Source: Bacteroidaceae bacterium
GTDB taxonomy: Bacteria > Bacteroidota > Bacteroidia > Bacteroidales > Bacteroidaceae
DNA: 64,000 nt
Assembly (NCBI GenBank): GCA_017445925.1
Contig: JAFSRW010000073.1
Coordinates: 1-64,000, forward strand
Direction of reading: 5' to 3'
The translations under genes were made by a program, and so were the position numbers. The notes below the pieces were generated by a model, which searched no databases, was not told the DNA's origin, and saw nothing but the letters and a program-made list of their open reading frames with translations. Of the stretch, positions 1 through 7,238 are shown in pieces (positions within the stretch are counted from its first letter, which is position 1; each line of letters opens with the position of its first letter).

Positions 1-1222
1 GCACAGTGAAACTAAGAGTCTTCGGTGTATTGGAAGTCTTGAGCACAAGTGCATTCCTCCTGGCGGGATTAATGGTATATACGGTTCCACTGTTTGTGGT
101 CAACTTACCATTGGCAATTGGCAGAGCTCCGCTTTCCCTGACTTCGGGAGAATAGAAACACCAATCCGATTTATCGAGAGTTTCGTTCGTGTAATTGACT
201 GCTGGCGTTTCCTCTGCAATAACATCGTCATACCAGTTGGCTATCTCTGCAGAAACATCTTTTTCCTCTATTGTCAGCGTACCCTTCACATAGCTCATCG
301 TATAGTTCATTGCCTCGGCACCCGATACGATAATGTCGTATGTGCCGGGAGCGCTGGAGGAGGTCGCAGAGCAGCTGAACTTCGGCTGCTTGGTCAGCAC
401 GCTTTCCGTATTTCCGTTGCGGAAACCGCTGTACGTGGCTGTGAAGGCAGGCATTGCATCACCCTGCGTAATGGTGAAGCTCTTGGCGGTCACAGTAAGA
501 GGCGTCTGAGTAATAGTCAGCGTACCGTTTACCAGTTCCACCGACTTATTGCTTACCGTTCCCTTCTCGACTATAATATCGTAAGTACCTACAGGAGATG
601 TTTTCGTTGCTGAACATGAGATGGTTGGAGTACCTGATGTTATCGTTCCTCCAGTCACTGTGTATTCGAACGTTGGATTGTCCTCTCCGTATTCACGTGT
701 ATAACTTAGGACTGTGATGGTTATGGGCACAACAACCGCTTCAATCATAATCTGAAAGGGGATGTCGCTCCATTTGTACTGTTCGCCGCCAACTTCCGTG
801 AATACCTGCGATTTAATGTTAGCTGTCTTGTTACCCTCACTGATACCATTGCTGGCCTGTAGGGTTACATATATCAAAGCACCCTCAGTACCGTAAAATT
901 CAGCATTTGTCATCGAGAATGACAGGAAACGATATGTATTCGCACCCATCTCCGACACATTCAGCGTATGGTCATCCTTTCTGTCCTCGTTCAGACTTGC
1001 AATCAGTTTTCCCTTATCGTTCTTTGCAATGCTGATACCGTCAGGTAACACCAAGTCGAACTGGAAAGCCGCATACTGATGCGTGGGGTTATTCAATACA
1101 ATAGCGACTTGCTTCGTTTCCCCCGCACTCATCTTGACAGTTTCTACTGTCAGGTTATCGGCCATAGTTCTGCCCACCATCGTGAGCAGAGCCGCCAACA
1201 TAATCATTCGGTAGTTTTTCAT
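1..1222 (-). CDS. Secreted protein with cohesin-like and MBG repeat domains (3' end cut by window)
   Basis: The first 407 codons of a gene that runs off the left edge. It starts with a signal peptide (MKNYRMIMLAALLTMVGRTM, then AD). Residues about 22-165 resemble the cohesin-like beta-sandwich often found in Bacteroidetes surface proteins (NNPTHQYAAFQFDLVLPDGI). Residues about 170-325 hold two MBG-type repeats with the recurring pattern YG..NP.F.Y / PVGTYDIIV / NGTLTI. After that comes a stretch with no family I recognise. The ATG overlaps the TGA of the upstream C10 protease gene as ATGA, so translation is probably coupled and both products belong to one operon. The role is probably as a surface or extracellular adhesin-like protein; this is inferred from domains only. 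The missing 3' end may carry a T9SS tail or BspA-type repeats, which cannot be seen here. Confidence 0.8.
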   Translation of the reverse strand, partial: MKNYRMIMLAALLTMVGRTMADNLTVETVKMSAGETKQVAIVLNNPTHQYAAFQFDLVLPDGISIAKNDKGKLIASLNEDRKDDHTLNVSEMGANTYRFLSFSMTNAEFYGTEGALIYVTLQASNGISEGNKTANIKSQVFTEVGGEQYKWSDIPFQIMIEAVVVPITITVLSYTREYGEDNPTFEYTVTGGTITSGTPTISCSATKTSPVGTYDIIVEKGTVSNKSVELVNGTLTITQTPLTVTAKSFTITQGDAMPAFTATYSGFRNGNTESVLTKQPKFSCSATSSSAPGTYDIIVSGAEAMNYTMSYVKGTLTIEEKDVSAEIANWYDDVIAEETPAVNYTNETLDKSDWCFYSPEVRESGALPIANGKLTTNSGTVYTINPARRNALVLKTSNTPKTLSFTV

Positions 1223-4200
1223 TTTATTACGAACTTTTTGCCATTATTGATATAAATTCCCTTCTTTGATGATTGCTTGTTCAACTTCCGTCCATCAAGA
1301 GTGTACCATTGTGAGGTGGTCGATTCTTCACTCTTCATTCTTAACTCTTCACTAAAACCGATTCCTGTAGTTCCGCTACCGAGTGGTGCAAAACGCTTCT
1401 CCTGATGTCCGGCTGTTACGAATATGATATTCTCAATGCTAACATTTCCTATTCCTGTTAACATGAAGTCTATCAATTGACCGCAATTGCCAGCGAATGC
1501 CTCGTTAGTCAAAGAGTAAACCAAAACCTTATAGAGATTGTCACCAGTCTTAGCGTATGTTATTATATGCCCATCACCACGGTTACTGTTCAAGCTGATA
1601 CTTTCAAGTTTCTGTCCTTCAGCAAGCCTAAGATCAAACTGTGTTGCTACATATTGATCTTCATTGTCGAGACAAAGCGAGAATACATTATCATCATCTA
1701 CGGATAGGGTCAGTCTGTCATTATCTGCCATATCAGTTACATAGGCCCGAACAGATGCGTCATTGCTGTTTGCTGACATAATGATAGATACCATTTTAAC
1801 AATATCTGTCACATTTATCTCACCATCACCATTCAAATCAGCAGCAGCTTGTACAAAGTTTGCCGAAGGTTTATCCATGATATAGTTGACAATCTCCACG
1901 ATATCCGACACATTAACCTCACCATCTCCGTTGGCATCACCAGAGATGAAGGATGAGGGCATATCATTCACATCCATCTCAACGATGTTGATAAATGCGC
2001 TCCAGGCCTTGGCATACGCATCCCGACTTCCTATAGGTACATACAATGTAATGCTGTCATAGTTTGTTTCGACGGTTCTTGTAATCCAATTTCCATCGTC
2101 ATCAACAAAAAAGTCCTCATACGAGAAAAAACCTTTGTTTCGCATGCCATCTGCAAATACTGGTTCGCAAACTATCGTGGGTGGGACAGGGTTCTTAGAA
2201 TAGATCGCACACAAATTAGGACAATAGCCAACAGACTTGTAATCAATATATTGCATGGATGCTGGGAAAGTTATCGTTTCCAACTTTTCAAAGTTATCTA
2301 TTGGAGTAAATGGACTACTGATACTCGTTATCCCTTCGCTCATAATGAGATTTCTGATTTCTTTACACTCAAAGATGCTACCTTGTCCAATCGCTGTAAC
2401 CTTATACACAACACCTTCTTCATTTGTTATTTGACTTGGCAAAACCAAAATATCAGAGGATGATCTTGCACTTTCAATGTATGCACAATGGTTAACTTTG
2501 TCATAGATGGTATAAAAGTACACATCGTCACCAGCAATTATTGTCAATTTTTCAAGATCACCTTTTTGAGAGGTTAAAGTACATAACGATACTTGAGCTG
2601 TGCTTCTATCAAAATCATAAATATCCCTATCCGTATTGCGGCACCATACAACTTGGGCCAGATCAGAAAGACCTAATTTGGCTCCTTTACAATCTATCAA
2701 TATTGTTTTGGTCTCGCCTGGAGCTATGTTGAGTTTGCCGCTGCTGAATATTTTTGATTCGGTATCCTCTTCTCCGGGAATACTAAATCGAACCTTTATT
2801 TCTTTTGTGTATGCTTTGGTGTCGTTATTTTCTACAGTAAAGACAAACGTCTGAGTGTCCCAGTCGTAATACTTTGGGGTGCCAACCGGGAGGATGTTGA
2901 AAGCATTGCTGATAGTAACGGTCTTTTCTGTCAAAATATTGTCACCAGATGGGTCTGCAGAGATAACAACTTTATAGTCACCAGCTTCTCCGCAAAAAAA
3001 ACCGCCAGCAATAGTGACAGTCTCACCTTCTCCAAGTGCTACATATCTACCAAAAGGACCTTCATCTTCTAATGTGGTTAAATTAGATATTTTAGTGTAA
3101 ATGTATTGCATAAAGTCCGCTCCTTGATTGGAAAGAGAGAACTGAAAAATTATATTATCCGGAGCAACAAGATTTCCCAAGAATTCTATCTCACCTACTG
3201 CTAAATGACTTTCCTCTGATGGATGAACAACGATACTTGTACCATTATTGCTAATGTCGAGGTTGGCTGTCATTCGTCCATCCTCATGCCACGTACTTTC
3301 CGAAGTATGCTTCCATATGGCGACAGCCTTGTAATAGCCGTCAGCAAGTCCTGACGGCTGTATAGATGACTCCGTGAACGTATAACCAACGGGGATAAAA
3401 TAATCTGAGATTATAATATGGTCAATAGTATTAGCATCTATAGAGATGTAGCGTATACCTAAATCAAAGTGTTCGCCATCGTGTCCAACATTAGCGTATT
3501 TGGCGGTTAATGTAGATGCATCGCTATTGCAACTAATATCTGCTCTGATGATTATACCTCCCAAAGGGTCTTCCTCATTATCGCCAGGCCGTTGTATGCC
3601 AATAACGGCTTGAAGGTCTTTCCAAAAGTCATCACCATAGCTACCGATTGTCCCTCCTGATCCAAAGAATACAATAGGGGGCATAATGGATAAGCGATAA
3701 TAGCCGTTGGTGTAGCCATTCCACCCGAAGTTCATGTGATAGTATCCGCTTCCGTCATACCCATCAACGACAAATGCATGTGCACCGCCAAACAGTAATT
3801 TCTCTGACCCATCGCCTGCATACAGAACAGGACGACCTGACTCTATTTCATGATAGATAAGGGCATCCCATTCTGCTGCGCTAAATGCCGTGTGTCTAAC
3901 AAGCCTTGCCTTGTCACTATATCCGAAATACTCTGTTAGCGACTTAAAGAAAGAAAAGTTAGTTCCAGATTCCTCTATTCCATAATCCATCTGGAATGCA
4001 CGACCACAGTATTGCATCAGCTTTGCTACGGCATCTGCCTGAGTTCCTGTTGCTGATGAAACATAAGTGTTCTTCATCTGATTCCAGTCAAACTTAGTGG
4101 GAGGCAACTCCTCGAATTCAGAATAAGCAGGAATTGCCGTAGTGCTACCCTGCGGCCACTTGTGGTAGTTCATAATTTGTGCCAAAGCGGTTGCTACGCA

Positions 4201-4701
4201 TCCTGTGACACACTGTTGGCCGTTTACCGTAGGGCATTGTAAGTTATATGGAGATTGCTGGCCCCACCTTGTGGTCAACATTGGAGCAATGACTGGATGA
4301 GAAGATACCATGGCTGATGTTGTTTTGACATCAGCTGGTATAGCCATAATCTGCTCCTCATAGCCTTTCAGCCATGCCTTCATATTCTCTGGCATGGTCT
4401 GCGGGGCGATGCTCCCCTCGGTGCTATAGCCAAGGATGGCCTCCGTGCGCTCGTCACCACTTACAATAACGAAACCGCCATTGTCTTCTGCATTGAAGAC
4501 ATAGTAAGCATCATTCTCTGCTGCCTTTGCCAGCTTCCGCATTTTGCGTGGCGCATTATGCCTGCTGCCTGTTGCAGCCGCAACTTTACTTTGCATGAAA
4601 GCATGAGCTTTCTGCAGAGCTTGCTCTTCAGTTACACGCTGAGCGTTCACGCAGATGCTCGCCAGCAGCACAGCTGCAATAGTAATTAGAAGTCGTTTCA
4701 T
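1219..4701 (-). CDS. C10 family cysteine protease (streptopain-like) with dockerin-like repeats and T9SS-type tail
   Basis: Secreted protease of 1160 residues. Signal peptide at residues 1-20 (MKRLLITIAAVLLASICVNA), then a pro-region and a C10 catalytic domain. The nucleophile is probably Cys168 in GCVATALAQIMNYHKWP and the partner His308 in GGAHAFVVDGY; both match the streptopain pattern. Beta-rich domains follow. Residues about 918-975 carry two Ca-binding dockerin-like loops (DANGDGEVNVSD and DLNGDGEINVTD). The last 30 residues (YTLDGRK...GIYINNGKKFVIK) look like a T9SS-type sorting tail. I chose the ATG at 4701 because it gives a clean signal peptide; an in-frame extension to 4788 would put 29 hydrophilic residues in front and overlap the upstream gene. 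It starts 5 bp after the stop of the 164-aa gene and overlaps the next gene by ATGA. Confidence 0.93.
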   Translation of the reverse strand: MKRLLITIAAVLLASICVNAQRVTEEQALQKAHAFMQSKVAAATGSRHNAPRKMRKLAKAAENDAYYVFNAEDNGGFVIVSGDERTEAILGYSTEGSIAPQTMPENMKAWLKGYEEQIMAIPADVKTTSAMVSSHPVIAPMLTTRWGQQSPYNLQCPTVNGQQCVTGCVATALAQIMNYHKWPQGSTTAIPAYSEFEELPPTKFDWNQMKNTYVSSATGTQADAVAKLMQYCGRAFQMDYGIEESGTNFSFFKSLTEYFGYSDKARLVRHTAFSAAEWDALIYHEIESGRPVLYAGDGSEKLLFGGAHAFVVDGYDGSGYYHMNFGWNGYTNGYYRLSIMPPIVFFGSGGTIGSYGDDFWKDLQAVIGIQRPGDNEEDPLGGIIIRADISCNSDASTLTAKYANVGHDGEHFDLGIRYISIDANTIDHIIISDYFIPVGYTFTESSIQPSGLADGYYKAVAIWKHTSESTWHEDGRMTANLDISNNGTSIVVHPSEESHLAVGEIEFLGNLVAPDNIIFQFSLSNQGADFMQYIYTKISNLTTLEDEGPFGRYVALGEGETVTIAGGFFCGEAGDYKVVISADPSGDNILTEKTVTISNAFNILPVGTPKYYDWDTQTFVFTVENNDTKAYTKEIKVRFSIPGEEDTESKIFSSGKLNIAPGETKTILIDCKGAKLGLSDLAQVVWCRNTDRDIYDFDRSTAQVSLCTLTSQKGDLEKLTIIAGDDVYFYTIYDKVNHCAYIESARSSSDILVLPSQITNEEGVVYKVTAIGQGSIFECKEIRNLIMSEGITSISSPFTPIDNFEKLETITFPASMQYIDYKSVGYCPNLCAIYSKNPVPPTIVCEPVFADGMRNKGFFSYEDFFVDDDGNWITRTVETNYDSITLYVPIGSRDAYAKAWSAFINIVEMDVNDMPSSFISGDANGDGEVNVSDIVEIVNYIMDKPSANFVQAAADLNGDGEINVTDIVKMVSIIMSANSNDASVRAYVTDMADNDRLTLSVDDDNVFSLCLDNEDQYVATQFDLRLAEGQKLESISLNSNRGDGHIITYAKTGDNLYKVLVYSLTNEAFAGNCGQLIDFMLTGIGNVSIENIIFVTAGHQEKRFAPLGSGTTGIGFSEELRMKSEESTTSQWYTLDGRKLNKQSSKKGIYINNGKKFVIK

Positions 4702-4706
4702 AGTTG

Positions 4707-5201
4707 TTATAGTTTGTTTTTTGATAAATAGACTATGATTTCGCGAAGGTCGGGGTGAAAAGTAGTCATCACTCGTTTCCAGACACATTTTTCCTGTCTA
4801 TAAATGGCAGGTTTGTCAAGTGCATAAACCCCAACAAACTCATAATCTGGAGCACCTCTTTTTTTTAGAAATGTAATTCTCAATTCCGGTTTTATTAAAT
4901 ACTTAACAATTTGTTTAAAGTTCTTGTCAGGGCTTTTCGGTATTTCGATAATTTTTTTTCCATGAGATGTATTACACCAGTAAATGTTTCGTTCTTGTGG
5001 AAACCATAAAGTAACATCCTCGAGTTTAGGGTTCGGAGTAAGTGCATTCTTAAAACGAGCGCCGGCTTTAATTAACCAACCACTTTGAATAGGCCTTAAG
5101 CCAAAGGCCACACATCCATCTTTAATTGTATGAAAACAAATAGGAGATTTTAAATTGTAAATGGAAGTCGGTCCTGACGTTTTACATAACTTTTTTGCCA
5201 T
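4707..5201 (-). CDS. Unknown 164-residue cytoplasmic protein, first gene of the C10 protease operon
   Basis: I do not recognise this gene. It has no signal peptide or membrane segment, is basic and lysine-rich, and by eye is clearly more AT-rich than its neighbours, which hints at later acquisition. A C-terminal block (DYEFVGVYALD, then CVWKRVMTTFHPD) has the look of a small alpha/beta or SRA-like nucleic-acid-binding module, but this resemblance is weak and I do not assign a function. It is not a Spi-type C10 protease inhibitor, because it lacks a signal peptide and does not resemble a C10 propeptide. Its stop lies 5 bp before the protease ATG, so the two are surely co-transcribed. The ATG at 5201 follows a long structured leader that ends about 43 nt upstream. 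Confidence 0.65.
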   Translation of the reverse strand: MAKKLCKTSGPTSIYNLKSPICFHTIKDGCVAFGLRPIQSGWLIKAGARFKNALTPNPKLEDVTLWFPQERNIYWCNTSHGKKIIEIPKSPDKNFKQIVKYLIKPELRITFLKKRGAPDYEFVGVYALDKPAIYRQEKCVWKRVMTTFHPDLREIIVYLSKNKL

Positions 5202-5243
5202 AGTAACTTGTTTTTTAGGTTAAATCTTCATCCTGCACAAAAC

Positions 5244-5484
5244 GGTGTGAGCCTTCTGTCACTCTTTGTCAGAAGGTTCCGGAATAACCTGTAGTAAAAA
5301 GAATGAAATCAGCCCACACCTATAATATATGGCGCACCTGCCGGAGCAGGGTACATCTATACGATTATAGGAGGAACGGCTCTCAATCTTTGTTCCTTAC
5401 TACACAGTGAATTTTCCGGATTCTCTGACGGAACGCAGATGTGATGCTCCTCGCATTGCGGTCGATGGCTTTTAACTCATCGAC
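5244..5484 (-). ncRNA. Structured 5' leader RNA of the C10 protease operon (candidate cis-regulatory RNA)
   Basis: A dense set of complementary segments lies between a -7 box and the first gene. In transcript order on the minus strand: a terminal hairpin (5478-5484 with 5461-5467, 7 bp); a 7-bp bulged hairpin (5454-5460 with 5434-5441); a long-range stem C (5414-5420 with 5278-5284, plus 5397-5404 with 5290-5297, 15 bp in two blocks); inside it 5364-5371 with 5319-5326 (8 bp) capped by a CCTGC/GCAGG hairpin with CGGA loop (5337-5350); a hairpin 5270-5276 with 5252-5258; and stem E (5312-5320 with 5244-5252, 9 bp with one G-U). The G-U is a pair only in the minus-strand RNA, which supports that orientation. 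Stem E crosses stem C, so it is either a pseudoknot or an alternative state. No known riboswitch class was recognised. Confidence 0.55.
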
Positions 5485-5488
5485 GCTA

Positions 5489-5496
5489 CAAAGATA
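5489..5496 (-). promoter_or_regulatory. -7 box for the C10 protease operon
   Basis: TATCTTTG on the minus strand matches the Bacteroidetes TAnnTTTG -7 element. The -33 region is weak (a TTTC lies closer than usual). The start of transcription would be near 5482, giving a leader of about 280 nt before the ATG at 5201. Confidence 0.55.
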
Positions 5497-5691
5497 GGAA
5501 ACTTTAGCGAAAGTCGTACCATAGTGGGCTGATTTTTTTGTTTGAAGGGTATAAGTTTATTAAGTACACACCCATGAGGTGTTATTTGATGCAAAAATAA
5601 TCGTTCATCTCGAAACAAGCTATGTCATTCCAATGCCACTTTGATGCCATTTGCATTTTTGAGACAAAAATGGTGCTTTCTTGATGTAAAA

Positions 5692-5747: not shown

Positions 5748-7238
5748 ATGCAAAATGACTATCAACAACTATGTGAGGCTATAGAGCGCCAGGTGGGGCG
5801 AACGATTCAATCCCCACTGGACTTCAAATGGCTATCGGAACGTATCTTTGAACATGTTCATGAGACAATAAGTCCCACTACGTTGATGCGCCTGTGGGGT
5901 TATCGCACAGGTGTTGTACCACGACAGGCAACGCTTGACATCATGGCACGTTTCCTGGGCTATGAAGACTACAGGGAGTTCAAGAGTAAGAATCAGGAAA
6001 AGCCCGGCTCTTTAAATAATGAGAGGAAAATTGATGAGGAGAGATGCGAAGGTAAGCGTTGGAAGCAGAGATGGTGGATAGCTGGGATGATAATACTGGT
6101 CGCAGTTGTCGGTACATGGTGGTTGTATGGCAAATGTGGGAATACGGATACAAATATGCCTGCTGAGGCTGAGGATTGGACTAGGAAGTTACGGAATCCG
6201 CAGTGCGATACTGACAGCCTGGATGTCTGGACCTTCGCTCAGGGCGGAAGGCCATTAGAAGAAGACGGAACGCTGTCGTATTTTATGAAGGACTTTGATG
6301 TCTATCAGGTCATATATGGTTTACCTGCAGGCGAGTATGAACTGCGTGTAAAGGCATGGCATATCCCGAGCGACAAAGAAAAGGCACTCTACGATTATGA
6401 AAACGTCGAGGACAAGGAGGATGGAACAGCGCTGTCGAGAGCAGAAATCTATGCAGGCCCTTTCGCCCAGCGGGTAAAGAACTATGTGTCTGAGTTTAAT
6501 CAGCAGAACAGCAGCTATGAGAACGTGCTGCATTTTGTGGTTCTAGAGGATTCCGTTCGCATTGGCTTCCGTTCAAGTGAGAACTGGCAGCGTTTCTGCC
6601 GTGCCAAAGCCGATGATTTTCGGCTATACCTTCTGCGACGGGCAAACACAGAGGAGGACTATCGACAGATGGAAGCACTGCAGGACAGTGCCCAGCGCCT
6701 GGATGACGCCCGTCCTCACCCGAAAGCTGGTGACCGCATTCCTTTGACGTACAATGGCATGGAAGTAGATGTGTTATACAAATATACGAAGAACTGCAAG
6801 GTCGTAGACTGCTGGGAAGGGCACGAAGCACCACTGCCCGAGGGATGGATATCGGATCAGGAGGCAAGTCGCTGTAGGCTGGTACACAGGACTGACGTAA
6901 GTCGGGGAATGGGTGACAGTGATATCTATCTGGAATATCGCAGCGACAAGCCTGCTAAGCCTGGGCTATTGATAGGGCAACAAATGTTCCTGGAACCAGG
7001 CACATATTACCTCACCGCTATTTTCTTTGCTCAGGATGAAAACGAGATGCCGACAAATGTTAGTTTTGCAGCGAAAGGCTATGAAGGCAGTTGTCAAGCA
7101 AGCCGTTTGATGGATTGGCAATATTTCCCGATTACCCTTCACGAGGCGCAGGAGGTGACGGTAGGTCTTTGGGCTCCTGAAGGTTGCAACGTGAGGCGCG
7201 CCGGCATCACAGGAATTGTAGTGTGGGCCGCAAAATAA
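5748..7238 (+). CDS. Single-pass membrane protein with cytoplasmic helical domain and extracytoplasmic beta domains
   Basis: A 496-residue protein of unknown function. Residues 1-85 form a helical, possibly DNA-binding-like cytoplasmic domain (ISPTTLMRLWGYRTG; PRQATLDIMARFLGYEDYREF) that resembles the N-terminal module of many Bacteroidales membrane proteins. A charged linker leads to one transmembrane helix at about 107-126 (WWIAGMIILVAVVGTWWLYG). The rest is extracytoplasmic and seems to hold two jelly-roll-like domains, each with a GEYELRVKAW / GTYYLTAIFF strand typical of carbohydrate- or ligand-binding beta-sandwiches. That layout suggests an envelope sensor linking an outside ligand to an inside helical domain, but this is inference. 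The ATG at 5748 sits correctly behind its promoter. It is a single-gene unit, divergent from the protease operon. Confidence 0.75.
   Translation: MQNDYQQLCEAIERQVGRTIQSPLDFKWLSERIFEHVHETISPTTLMRLWGYRTGVVPRQATLDIMARFLGYEDYREFKSKNQEKPGSLNNERKIDEERCEGKRWKQRWWIAGMIILVAVVGTWWLYGKCGNTDTNMPAEAEDWTRKLRNPQCDTDSLDVWTFAQGGRPLEEDGTLSYFMKDFDVYQVIYGLPAGEYELRVKAWHIPSDKEKALYDYENVEDKEDGTALSRAEIYAGPFAQRVKNYVSEFNQQNSSYENVLHFVVLEDSVRIGFRSSENWQRFCRAKADDFRLYLLRRANTEEDYRQMEALQDSAQRLDDARPHPKAGDRIPLTYNGMEVDVLYKYTKNCKVVDCWEGHEAPLPEGWISDQEASRCRLVHRTDVSRGMGDSDIYLEYRSDKPAKPGLLIGQQMFLEPGTYYLTAIFFAQDENEMPTNVSFAAKGYEGSCQASRLMDWQYFPITLHEAQEVTVGLWAPEGCNVRRAGITGIVVWAAK

Follow-up and report, generated by a model that had tools for sequence, protein, structure and literature searches.

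A candidate structured leader RNA with crossing helices, found in many copies in Bacteroidota

Introduction

Several classes of metabolite riboswitches, among them the purine, SAM-I and cobalamin classes, are organized around kissing loops and pseudoknots. The RNA considered here resembles them in its predicted form, being a 5′ leader with a compact junction, loop–loop or pseudoknot contacts and competing strands close to the start codon; it differs from them in matching no Rfam family and in preceding genes that span no single pathway. Structured RNAs that lie upstream of an ORF and occur in several genomic copies are also familiar from HEARO (omega) RNAs and from the bridge RNAs of IS110. 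The leader is likewise multicopy and upstream of an ORF, but no common endonuclease or transposase family stands out in the 25 of 62 first-gene families that were listed. A further comparison is with the invertible promoters of Bacteroidales and with rAID or integron-like arrays, in which inverted repeats lie at a promoter or downstream genes are swapped. The leader, too, has inverted repeats around its promoter and exchanged downstream genes. Unlike invertible promoters, it gave no inverted allele when 139 genomes were searched with one exact pattern, and unlike the arrays, its copies, among the matches listed, are mostly scattered.

Bacteroidota largely initiate translation without the usual ribosome-binding sequence, and leader-based control in this phylum is poorly known. 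Structured RNAs described from the same phylum include the Bacteroidales-1, Bacteroides-1 and Flavo-1 motifs (Weinberg 2010; PMC2864571), which became RF01693, RF01694 and RF01705; as far as the available part of that paper describes them, they share with the leader their structured nature and their phylum, but none of the three was reported by any Rfam scan of the leader. Bacteroides-2 is listed in the same part of PMC2864571 without an Rfam number and so falls outside the Rfam comparison. If the interpretation offered below is right, the standard catalogue lacks a regulatory RNA that is present in many copies in a major bacterial phylum, and unrelated surface, secreted and other proteins could be placed in one regulon.

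The copy from which the family was recognized lies in a window of 64,000 nucleotides, the whole stretch of DNA analysed, from a contig of a Bacteroidaceae bacterium. Coordinates refer to this window, and the RNA, its promoter and the genes behind it are on the minus strand.

Distribution and Probable Novelty of the RNA Family

A first DNA search of 139 genomes from the genus found matches at E ≤ 0.01 in 17, the own genome among them; in some genomes the match was a short promoter-like piece only. A covariance model, R1, was then built from seven core-covering sequences. In the genus it matched 37 of the 139 genomes and in the order 20 of 295, each count including the own genome. A pattern search of genome contigs for the E region described below yielded 74 contigs, mostly labelled as metagenome bins of Prevotella, Prevotellaceae, Bacteroidaceae or Bacteroidales; of the other labels, one names a Hoylesella loescheii strain, one Erysipelothrix rhusiopathiae, and one, on a bin, says no more than 'bacterium'. 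When R1 was run on these contigs plus the window, 74 of the 75 matched, the miss being a 143-nt fragment (L144). A second model, R2, was made from 51 loci that R1, and not the pattern, had found, although one of its sources (L053) seemingly lies on the same contig as a pattern locus (L107). In the order, 134 of 393 genomes had an R2 match, in 81 of 207 genera; in a sample of the phylum, 25 of 345 genomes did: the own genome, one of the same family, 21 from other families of the class and two from other classes. All genomes searched with R1 and R2 were within Bacteroidota. A deeper search of the own genome found six copies; since only seven or eight candidates were scored per genome in the order and the phylum, copy numbers there are lower bounds.

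Three alignments were used. A6 holds the window-type sequences (72 distinct rows), and A7 holds 50 rows of loci found by covariance model. A9 comprises 75 rows (27 A7 sources, the window and 48 further loci) and overlaps A7, the source of its model.

The initial annotation had recognized no described class with this layout, and comparison with Rfam 15 agrees with it. No match at or above the gathering score was found in the whole window and only tRNAs were found in 25 relative loci, while loose E-values brought up two models of snoRNAs and one of a miRNA, each scoring far under its cut-off. Membership in any Rfam 15 family was rejected because, tRNAs apart, neither the window nor the relative loci reach the gathering cut-off. 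Nothing matching was found in open-access papers on RNA classes, supplementary tables excluded, and the terms looked up are absent from the available parts of PMC11109978 and PMC8632094. Structured 5′ regions without Rfam hits have been reported from a flavobacterium (PMC9723704), and from what the available part of that paper gives, these could include relatives of the leader. Taken as a family, the leader RNA is probably new and is absent from Rfam 15.

Carriage by phage or plasmid was considered as well, and no match with one element was found. A hairpin pattern matched 44 viral contigs, of which only three (L235, L245 and L228) match R2, possibly through host flanks; the Prevotella-type pattern matched no viral contig.

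Fold and Helices of the Leader

The initial annotation described a densely folded leader on the minus strand, and this description holds, with the stems located where it had placed them. The minus strand from 5230 to 5500 has a predicted folding energy of −92.1 kcal/mol, against −68.59 ± 4.48 in 200 shuffled sequences (z −5.25; none of the 200 folds as well). The plus strand of the same leader also folds strongly (z −4.10; one of 200 shuffles as good), so folding energy alone leaves the strand undecided.

At the 5′ end lie hairpin hp1 (5461–5484), with compensatory changes in 66 A6 rows (for example CG41/TG7/GC6/TA4), and hairpin hp2 (AUGC-GAGGA-GCAU; 5444–5456), which was read by hand and has AUGU/ACAU in locus L013. 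The core is bounded by helix C-outer, in which GUCAGA (5424–5429) pairs with UCUGAC (5268–5273). Its paired cells amount to 95.4, 99.3 and 98.7% in A6, A7 and A9, with double changes at 5, 6 and 6 of its 6 pairs. Helix C-inner pairs UCCGGAA (5414–5420) with UUCCGGA (5278–5284), and in A9 99.8% of its cells are paired and all seven pairs show double changes. In helix D, formed by GUAGUAA (5397–5403) and UUACUAC (5291–5297), the same alignment has 96.9% paired cells over six pairs and 87.3% at one, all seven again with double changes.

The 5′ strand of C-inner is the loop of hairpin K (GAAU-CCGGAAA-AUUC; 5409–5423), which is supported through its first pair (AU44/GC19/GU7 in A9, z 6.9 in A7, both alignments being unfitted to K), while its fourth pair is often broken (CA 26 in A9). 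The 3′ strand is the loop of a proposed hairpin M (AGGUU-AUUCCGG-AACCU; 5274–5290), for which support is moderate: GC pairs stand in 75 and 73 of the 75 A9 rows, the next pair reads UA42/CG13/UG6/AU1 with 13 of 75 non-standard, and the innermost pair fails in A6, where it is standard in 10 of 72 rows. C-inner would then be the loop of K joined to the loop of M, probably as a kissing interaction, and K and M, placed between C-outer and D, would give a junction with kissing loops.

Two further helices cross this core. Helix J (GUUCC at 5430–5434 with GGAAC at 5392–5396) crosses C and D, joining the strand before C-outer to the strand after D. Its mean longest helix is 4.88 in A9 against 3.75 (sd 0.11) with swapped partners and 4.62 against 3.55 in A7; it is weak in the window-type A6 (3.53 against 3.32). 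Helix E is formed by a 5′ arm, GGUGUGGGC (5312–5320), and a 3′ arm, GCUCACACC (5244–5252), at which the conserved RNA ends. It joins the region within D to the strand after C-outer, and its support comes from alignments unfitted to it. In the initial annotation stem C took in both C-inner and D (5397–5420 with 5278–5297); the 5′ arm of E lies within this stem and its 3′ arm beyond it, so that the two cannot be nested, just as the initial annotation had read from the sequence. Hairpin F (5364–5371 with 5319–5326; span 5319–5371) and the inner hairpin G within it (5346–5350 with 5337–5341) were included in fitting A6, where F has 98.5% paired cells over six pairs and 90.2% over two, and G 76.9%.

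For the 5′ half alone, the predicted minimum consists of J and an extended K, with a z of only −1.23. Several other helices were tried and rejected. A basal stem, P1, proposed from the flanks, gave 6.35 against 6.58 with swapped partners in A6 and 6.78 against 6.68 in A7 and A9 together; hairpin H (CCUUCUG/CAGAAGG) pairs in window types, largely from conservation and with two pairs often broken, and was not seen by eye in other types; and hairpin I (CACAC/GUGUG) was considered and then dropped.

Compensatory Change

The covariation that the initial annotation predicted for homologous leaders is strong in C and D. In A6, 93.7% of 2,161 cells pair and both sides change at 25 of 33 pairs (score 0.409 against 0.151 shuffled); in A7, 96.4% of 1,165 cells pair, with change on both sides at 32 of 33 pairs (0.629 against 0.133). 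For C and D in A9, 98.1% of 1,555 cells pair and both-sided change is seen at all 21 pairs. The core score in A9 is 1.034 against 0.206 shuffled and falls to 0.079–0.103 in slid versions; the number of pair types alone is not above shuffles, 469 of 500 being as high. Since fitting of the alignments took C, D and F into account, paired-cell counts lean towards these helices. The diversity of pairs through all four letters and the collapse on sliding would nevertheless be hard to explain otherwise, and the sequence comparisons yield overwhelming evidence of compensatory change for C and D. The shuffle and swap controls ignore the kinship of the sequences, their null being one without a tree.

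Compensatory change also supports E as a pseudoknot, in two alignments unfitted to it. In A7, 87.0% of 347 cells are paired (18.7–70.9% when slid), with 34 double-change cells against 14.2 shuffled; in A9, the figures are 92.5% of 652 cells (19.7–73.4% slid) and 32 against 7.8. In both, the double-change count exceeds all 500 shuffles, while the numbers of varying pairs and of pair types in E are not clearly above them (135 and 160 of 500 as high in A7; 33 and 74 of 500 in A9). An unguided scan of A7 placed 18 C and D pairs on top, followed by the K pair with its z of 6.9, and lower down, among correlations between non-pairing positions, a pair of E (z 5.3) and one of M (z 4.4). In A6 the C and D pairs also came first, and non-pairing correlations entered sooner than in A7.

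The pairs also bear on the strand. Stem E has nine pairs, one of them a G-U that would be A-C if read on the plus strand, and from it the initial annotation had argued for a minus-strand RNA. Homologs point the same way: at paired positions in A9, G-U outnumbers A-C by 63 to 17 in E and by 17 to 4 in C and D, and because it does so in every helix set counted, the pattern fits a transcript of the minus strand. G-U makes up only about 1% of the C and D cells in A9, although these stems vary through all four Watson–Crick pairs; such a proportion is low for RNA helices.

Promoter Box and Upstream Segments

The leader lies between a predicted promoter and a start codon on the same strand, both read from the sequence. 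At 5489–5496 is the putative −7 box TATCTTTG, of the promoter type TAnnTTTG. It predicts a start near 5481, next to the start near 5482 guessed in the initial annotation. Of 68 window-type loci, 58 have the box in the 110 nt upstream (letter-shuffled mean 2.45, maximum 8), and in 56 of these 58 it stands 54–61 nt before the core; it is upstream in 37 of 50 A7 loci, against a shuffled mean of 3.93, with looser spacing. On the other side of the RNA, an ORF starts 30–70 nt after it in 74 of the 109 distinct ORFs listed, these being the first ATG within 260 nt that opens at least 60 aa (125 rows minus duplicates, other loci omitted).

Upstream of the main promoter lies a segment complementary to the 5′ arm of E, here called anti-E (AATCAGCCCAC; 5524–5534). 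Of 68 window-type loci, 45 contain a match of at least 9 nt to it (shuffled mean 0.23, maximum 3), and none of 57 loci of other types has the motif. Its variable letter tracks the 5′ arm of E, with A/T in 37 loci, G/C in 10, G/T in 2 and A/C in none, the motif being absent from 19. The anti-E motif is followed by an ATG in 51 of 68 loci, and in 28 of these 51 a second TAnnTTTG box stands 31–37 nt before the ATG. A transcript from this second box could bring along a competitor of the 3′ arm of E; the window itself has the anti-E segment and lacks the second box.

The ATG opens a possible upstream ORF in the window (MVRLSLKFPIFVASMS plus a stop; 5472–5522), and ORF length ranges from 6 to 150 aa among the loci. 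A conserved upstream peptide was rejected: the start is common to the loci and the length is not, the ORF overlaps the promoter, and its significance is doubtful. By eye, a GCCGAAAAUCC..AGAGUAGG-like motif occurs between the RNA and the gene in six Prevotella-type loci (L100, L104, L106, L152, L163 and L166).

Genes behind the RNA

The first gene behind the RNA (4707–5201) starts 43 nt past the model match. Its 164-aa product, a small unknown protein in the initial annotation, can now be named as a stand-alone SRA-like domain (PF18491, E 3.3e-11), and it also matches the PADLOC model mREase_II (E 1.7e-15). Relatives of this protein were found in none of the genome contigs, viral contigs, plasmids, phages and solved structures searched; own genome aside, there were weak partial matches in two of 60 relative genomes. 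The second gene (1219–4701, with the start at 4701 inferred and the ORF reaching to 4788) had been read as a secreted cysteine protease. It encodes a C10 protease, with matches to Peptidase_C10 (E 3.7e-61), Inhibitor_I69 (E 4.8e-28) and, above cut-off, Dockerin_1 (E 9.9e-11) and one below cut-off to LRR_5; the signal peptide was judged by eye. Beyond it lies the ORF that the initial annotation called adhesin-like.

The same annotation had tied the leader to C10 protease operons, and this tie was not supported by comparison; its picture of a structured, covarying leader outside the Rfam 15 families was. Among 108 first proteins (the 109 listed minus one near-duplicate), 62 Pfam families were matched at E 0.001, and Peptidase_C10 is matched by a single protein. 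The 25 families listed include LRR_5 (15 proteins), SRA (4), CD225 (3), Zn_Ribbon_1 (3) and Band_7_1 (2). PADLOC matched mREase_II in four of the first proteins and ten further models in one protein each. Of the five further copies in the own genome, one directly precedes a C10 protease; the others stand before an LRR_5 protein, an EcoRI-type methylase, a protein whose match to a sorting domain is below cut-off, and a tail-collar protein.

Three relatives show how the genes behind the RNA can differ. At 78–83% identity, homology to the window runs from 7234 to 5245 in L028, from 7234 to 5236 in L027 and from 7207 to 5234 in L026, and then stops; it resumes in L028 within the C10 gene (4644–4334), and in L027 at 528–6. 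Since homology halts at the 3′ end of the RNA with another gene beyond it, the genes behind the RNA have been exchanged. From this halt and from the diversity of first genes, the C10 protease link appears mostly incidental.

Among ORFs of at least 200 aa, a heuristic called signal-like N-termini in 45 of 84 first genes and in 120 of 330 others (odds ratio 2.0, p 0.006); for first genes of at least 80 aa, the counts are 18 of 56 in A6, 21 of 36 in A7 and 30 of 35 in the new A9 loci. An enrichment for export is suggestive only, because the control contains spurious ORFs and the A9 loci are the best-scoring matches. Acquired interbacterial defence islands were also considered as a setting for the RNA and set aside.

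Proposed Function and Alternatives

That the RNA exists as a family is about as certain as sequence analysis permits. As to what it does, the comparisons make it probable that it is a cis-acting, switch-like 5′ leader of about 240 nt that pivots on helix E; action in cis is likely, and the switch mechanism is a reasoned proposal. The RNA would be transcribed from the TAnnTTTG box and act on the next gene, with pseudoknot E as its moving part. E is put in this role because its 3′ arm lies just before the gene and because several segments can compete for its arms: in some types other than that of the window, the loop of a downstream hairpin close to the start codon (loop L); in window types, anti-E; and in certain loci, hairpin F. 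The forming or loss of E would then change access to the start codon or the passage of RNA polymerase. The covariation suits a single pseudoknotted fold as well as two states, and if the crossing helices are present at the same time, as they may be, no switching would be required.

Complements of the 3′ arm of E bear on the competing loop. This arm could be located in 148 of the 173 rows, and an exact reverse complement of its 6-mer occurs downstream in 9 of 36 A7 rows (swapped mean 1.8, maximum 5), where, by eye, the complements form part of hairpin loops ahead of the start codon. For another 36 loci, from A9, the count is again 9, against a swapped mean of 4.3 and tying the swapped maximum of 9, and in 70 window-type loci it is zero. 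The genes that would be regulated, as represented by the 108 first proteins, have no common pathway or function, which is unusual for a metabolite switch. Some riboswitch classes have diverse genes too, so the missing common pathway only lowers the claim of a riboswitch. A wider reading is possible, if a little doubtful: that this many-copy Bacteroidota switch RNA senses one signal and sets unrelated, often exported genes, with the 5′ arm of E, the start-codon loop and anti-E in competition. The consensus, the models and the competing helices make ligand screening, probing and reporter tests straightforward.

Helix E could also serve as a transcription attenuator, forming an intrinsic terminator with a U tract so that its refolding decides read-through. 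E is rich in G+C and lies directly before the gene, and a T5 follows its 3′ arm within 10 nt in 34 of 73 A7 and A9 loci; yet among window-type loci T5 is found in only 4 of 66, the window itself having T4, and at about 59 nt the loop of E would be long in a terminator. Attenuation is an unlikely account of the family, although the difference between 34 of 73 and 4 of 66 means that termination may contribute in some groups of loci. Another alternative would make the element one of DNA, either inverted repeats flanking an invertible promoter or an integron-like recombination site for gene exchange. The inverted repeat of 5524–5534 with 5312–5320 around the promoter, the halt of homology at the 3′ end of the RNA with a different gene after it and the very low G-U in C and D would all suit such an element. 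Against it, none of 57 loci of other types has the repeat, paired positions on the transcribed strand show more G-U than A-C, and E, J and K suit an RNA fold; the one exact inverted-allele pattern gave no match in the 139 genomes of the genus, whose assemblies show a single orientation, and an invertible promoter was rejected on this count. A DNA-level role is very unlikely.

Equally improbable is an independent small RNA that acts in trans, with the following gene incidental. Its own promoter-like box, a compact fold, several copies per genome and neighbours without a common function would agree with this, but most listed loci sit directly before a start codon on the same strand, and in A7 a downstream segment covaries with the 3′ arm of E. 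The remaining alternative concerns the novelty of this leader, since the class may already have been described in subscription journals, supplementary files or other collections. So widespread a family ought to be easily found, and PMC8040213 reports 3,161 candidates. With no match in Rfam 15 and nothing similar in the open-access literature on RNA classes, a prior description seems unlikely.

Additional Observations

Several of the R2 matches listed (for example G280:C26:36, G052:C54:223 and G208:C564:191) are no more than a few hundred bases from the end of a contig, a possible sign of repeated sequence adjoining the RNA. In one genome (G285; loci L080 and L092), a partial second copy seems, by eye, to start within about 100 nt downstream in a tandem-like arrangement. 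The contig labelled Erysipelothrix rhusiopathiae (L097) has a cut-off R1 match of 59.7 bits; the label, a Firmicutes name, may mark a misassigned bin or a transfer.

In the window, the SRA-like gene that matches a PADLOC model of methyl-directed restriction enzymes sits between the RNA and the C10 protease, and in three other loci (L099, L134 and L141) the first protein bears an SRA-like domain in its C-terminal half. The divergent neighbour of the leader (5748–7238, plus strand) matches no Pfam family above cut-off; it has an N-terminal stretch, ..LSERIFEHVHETISPTTLMRLWGYR.., labelled helix-turn-helix-like, and a membrane segment seen by eye. A similar N-terminal stretch opens the SRA proteins encoded immediately behind the RNA in L099, L134 and L141.
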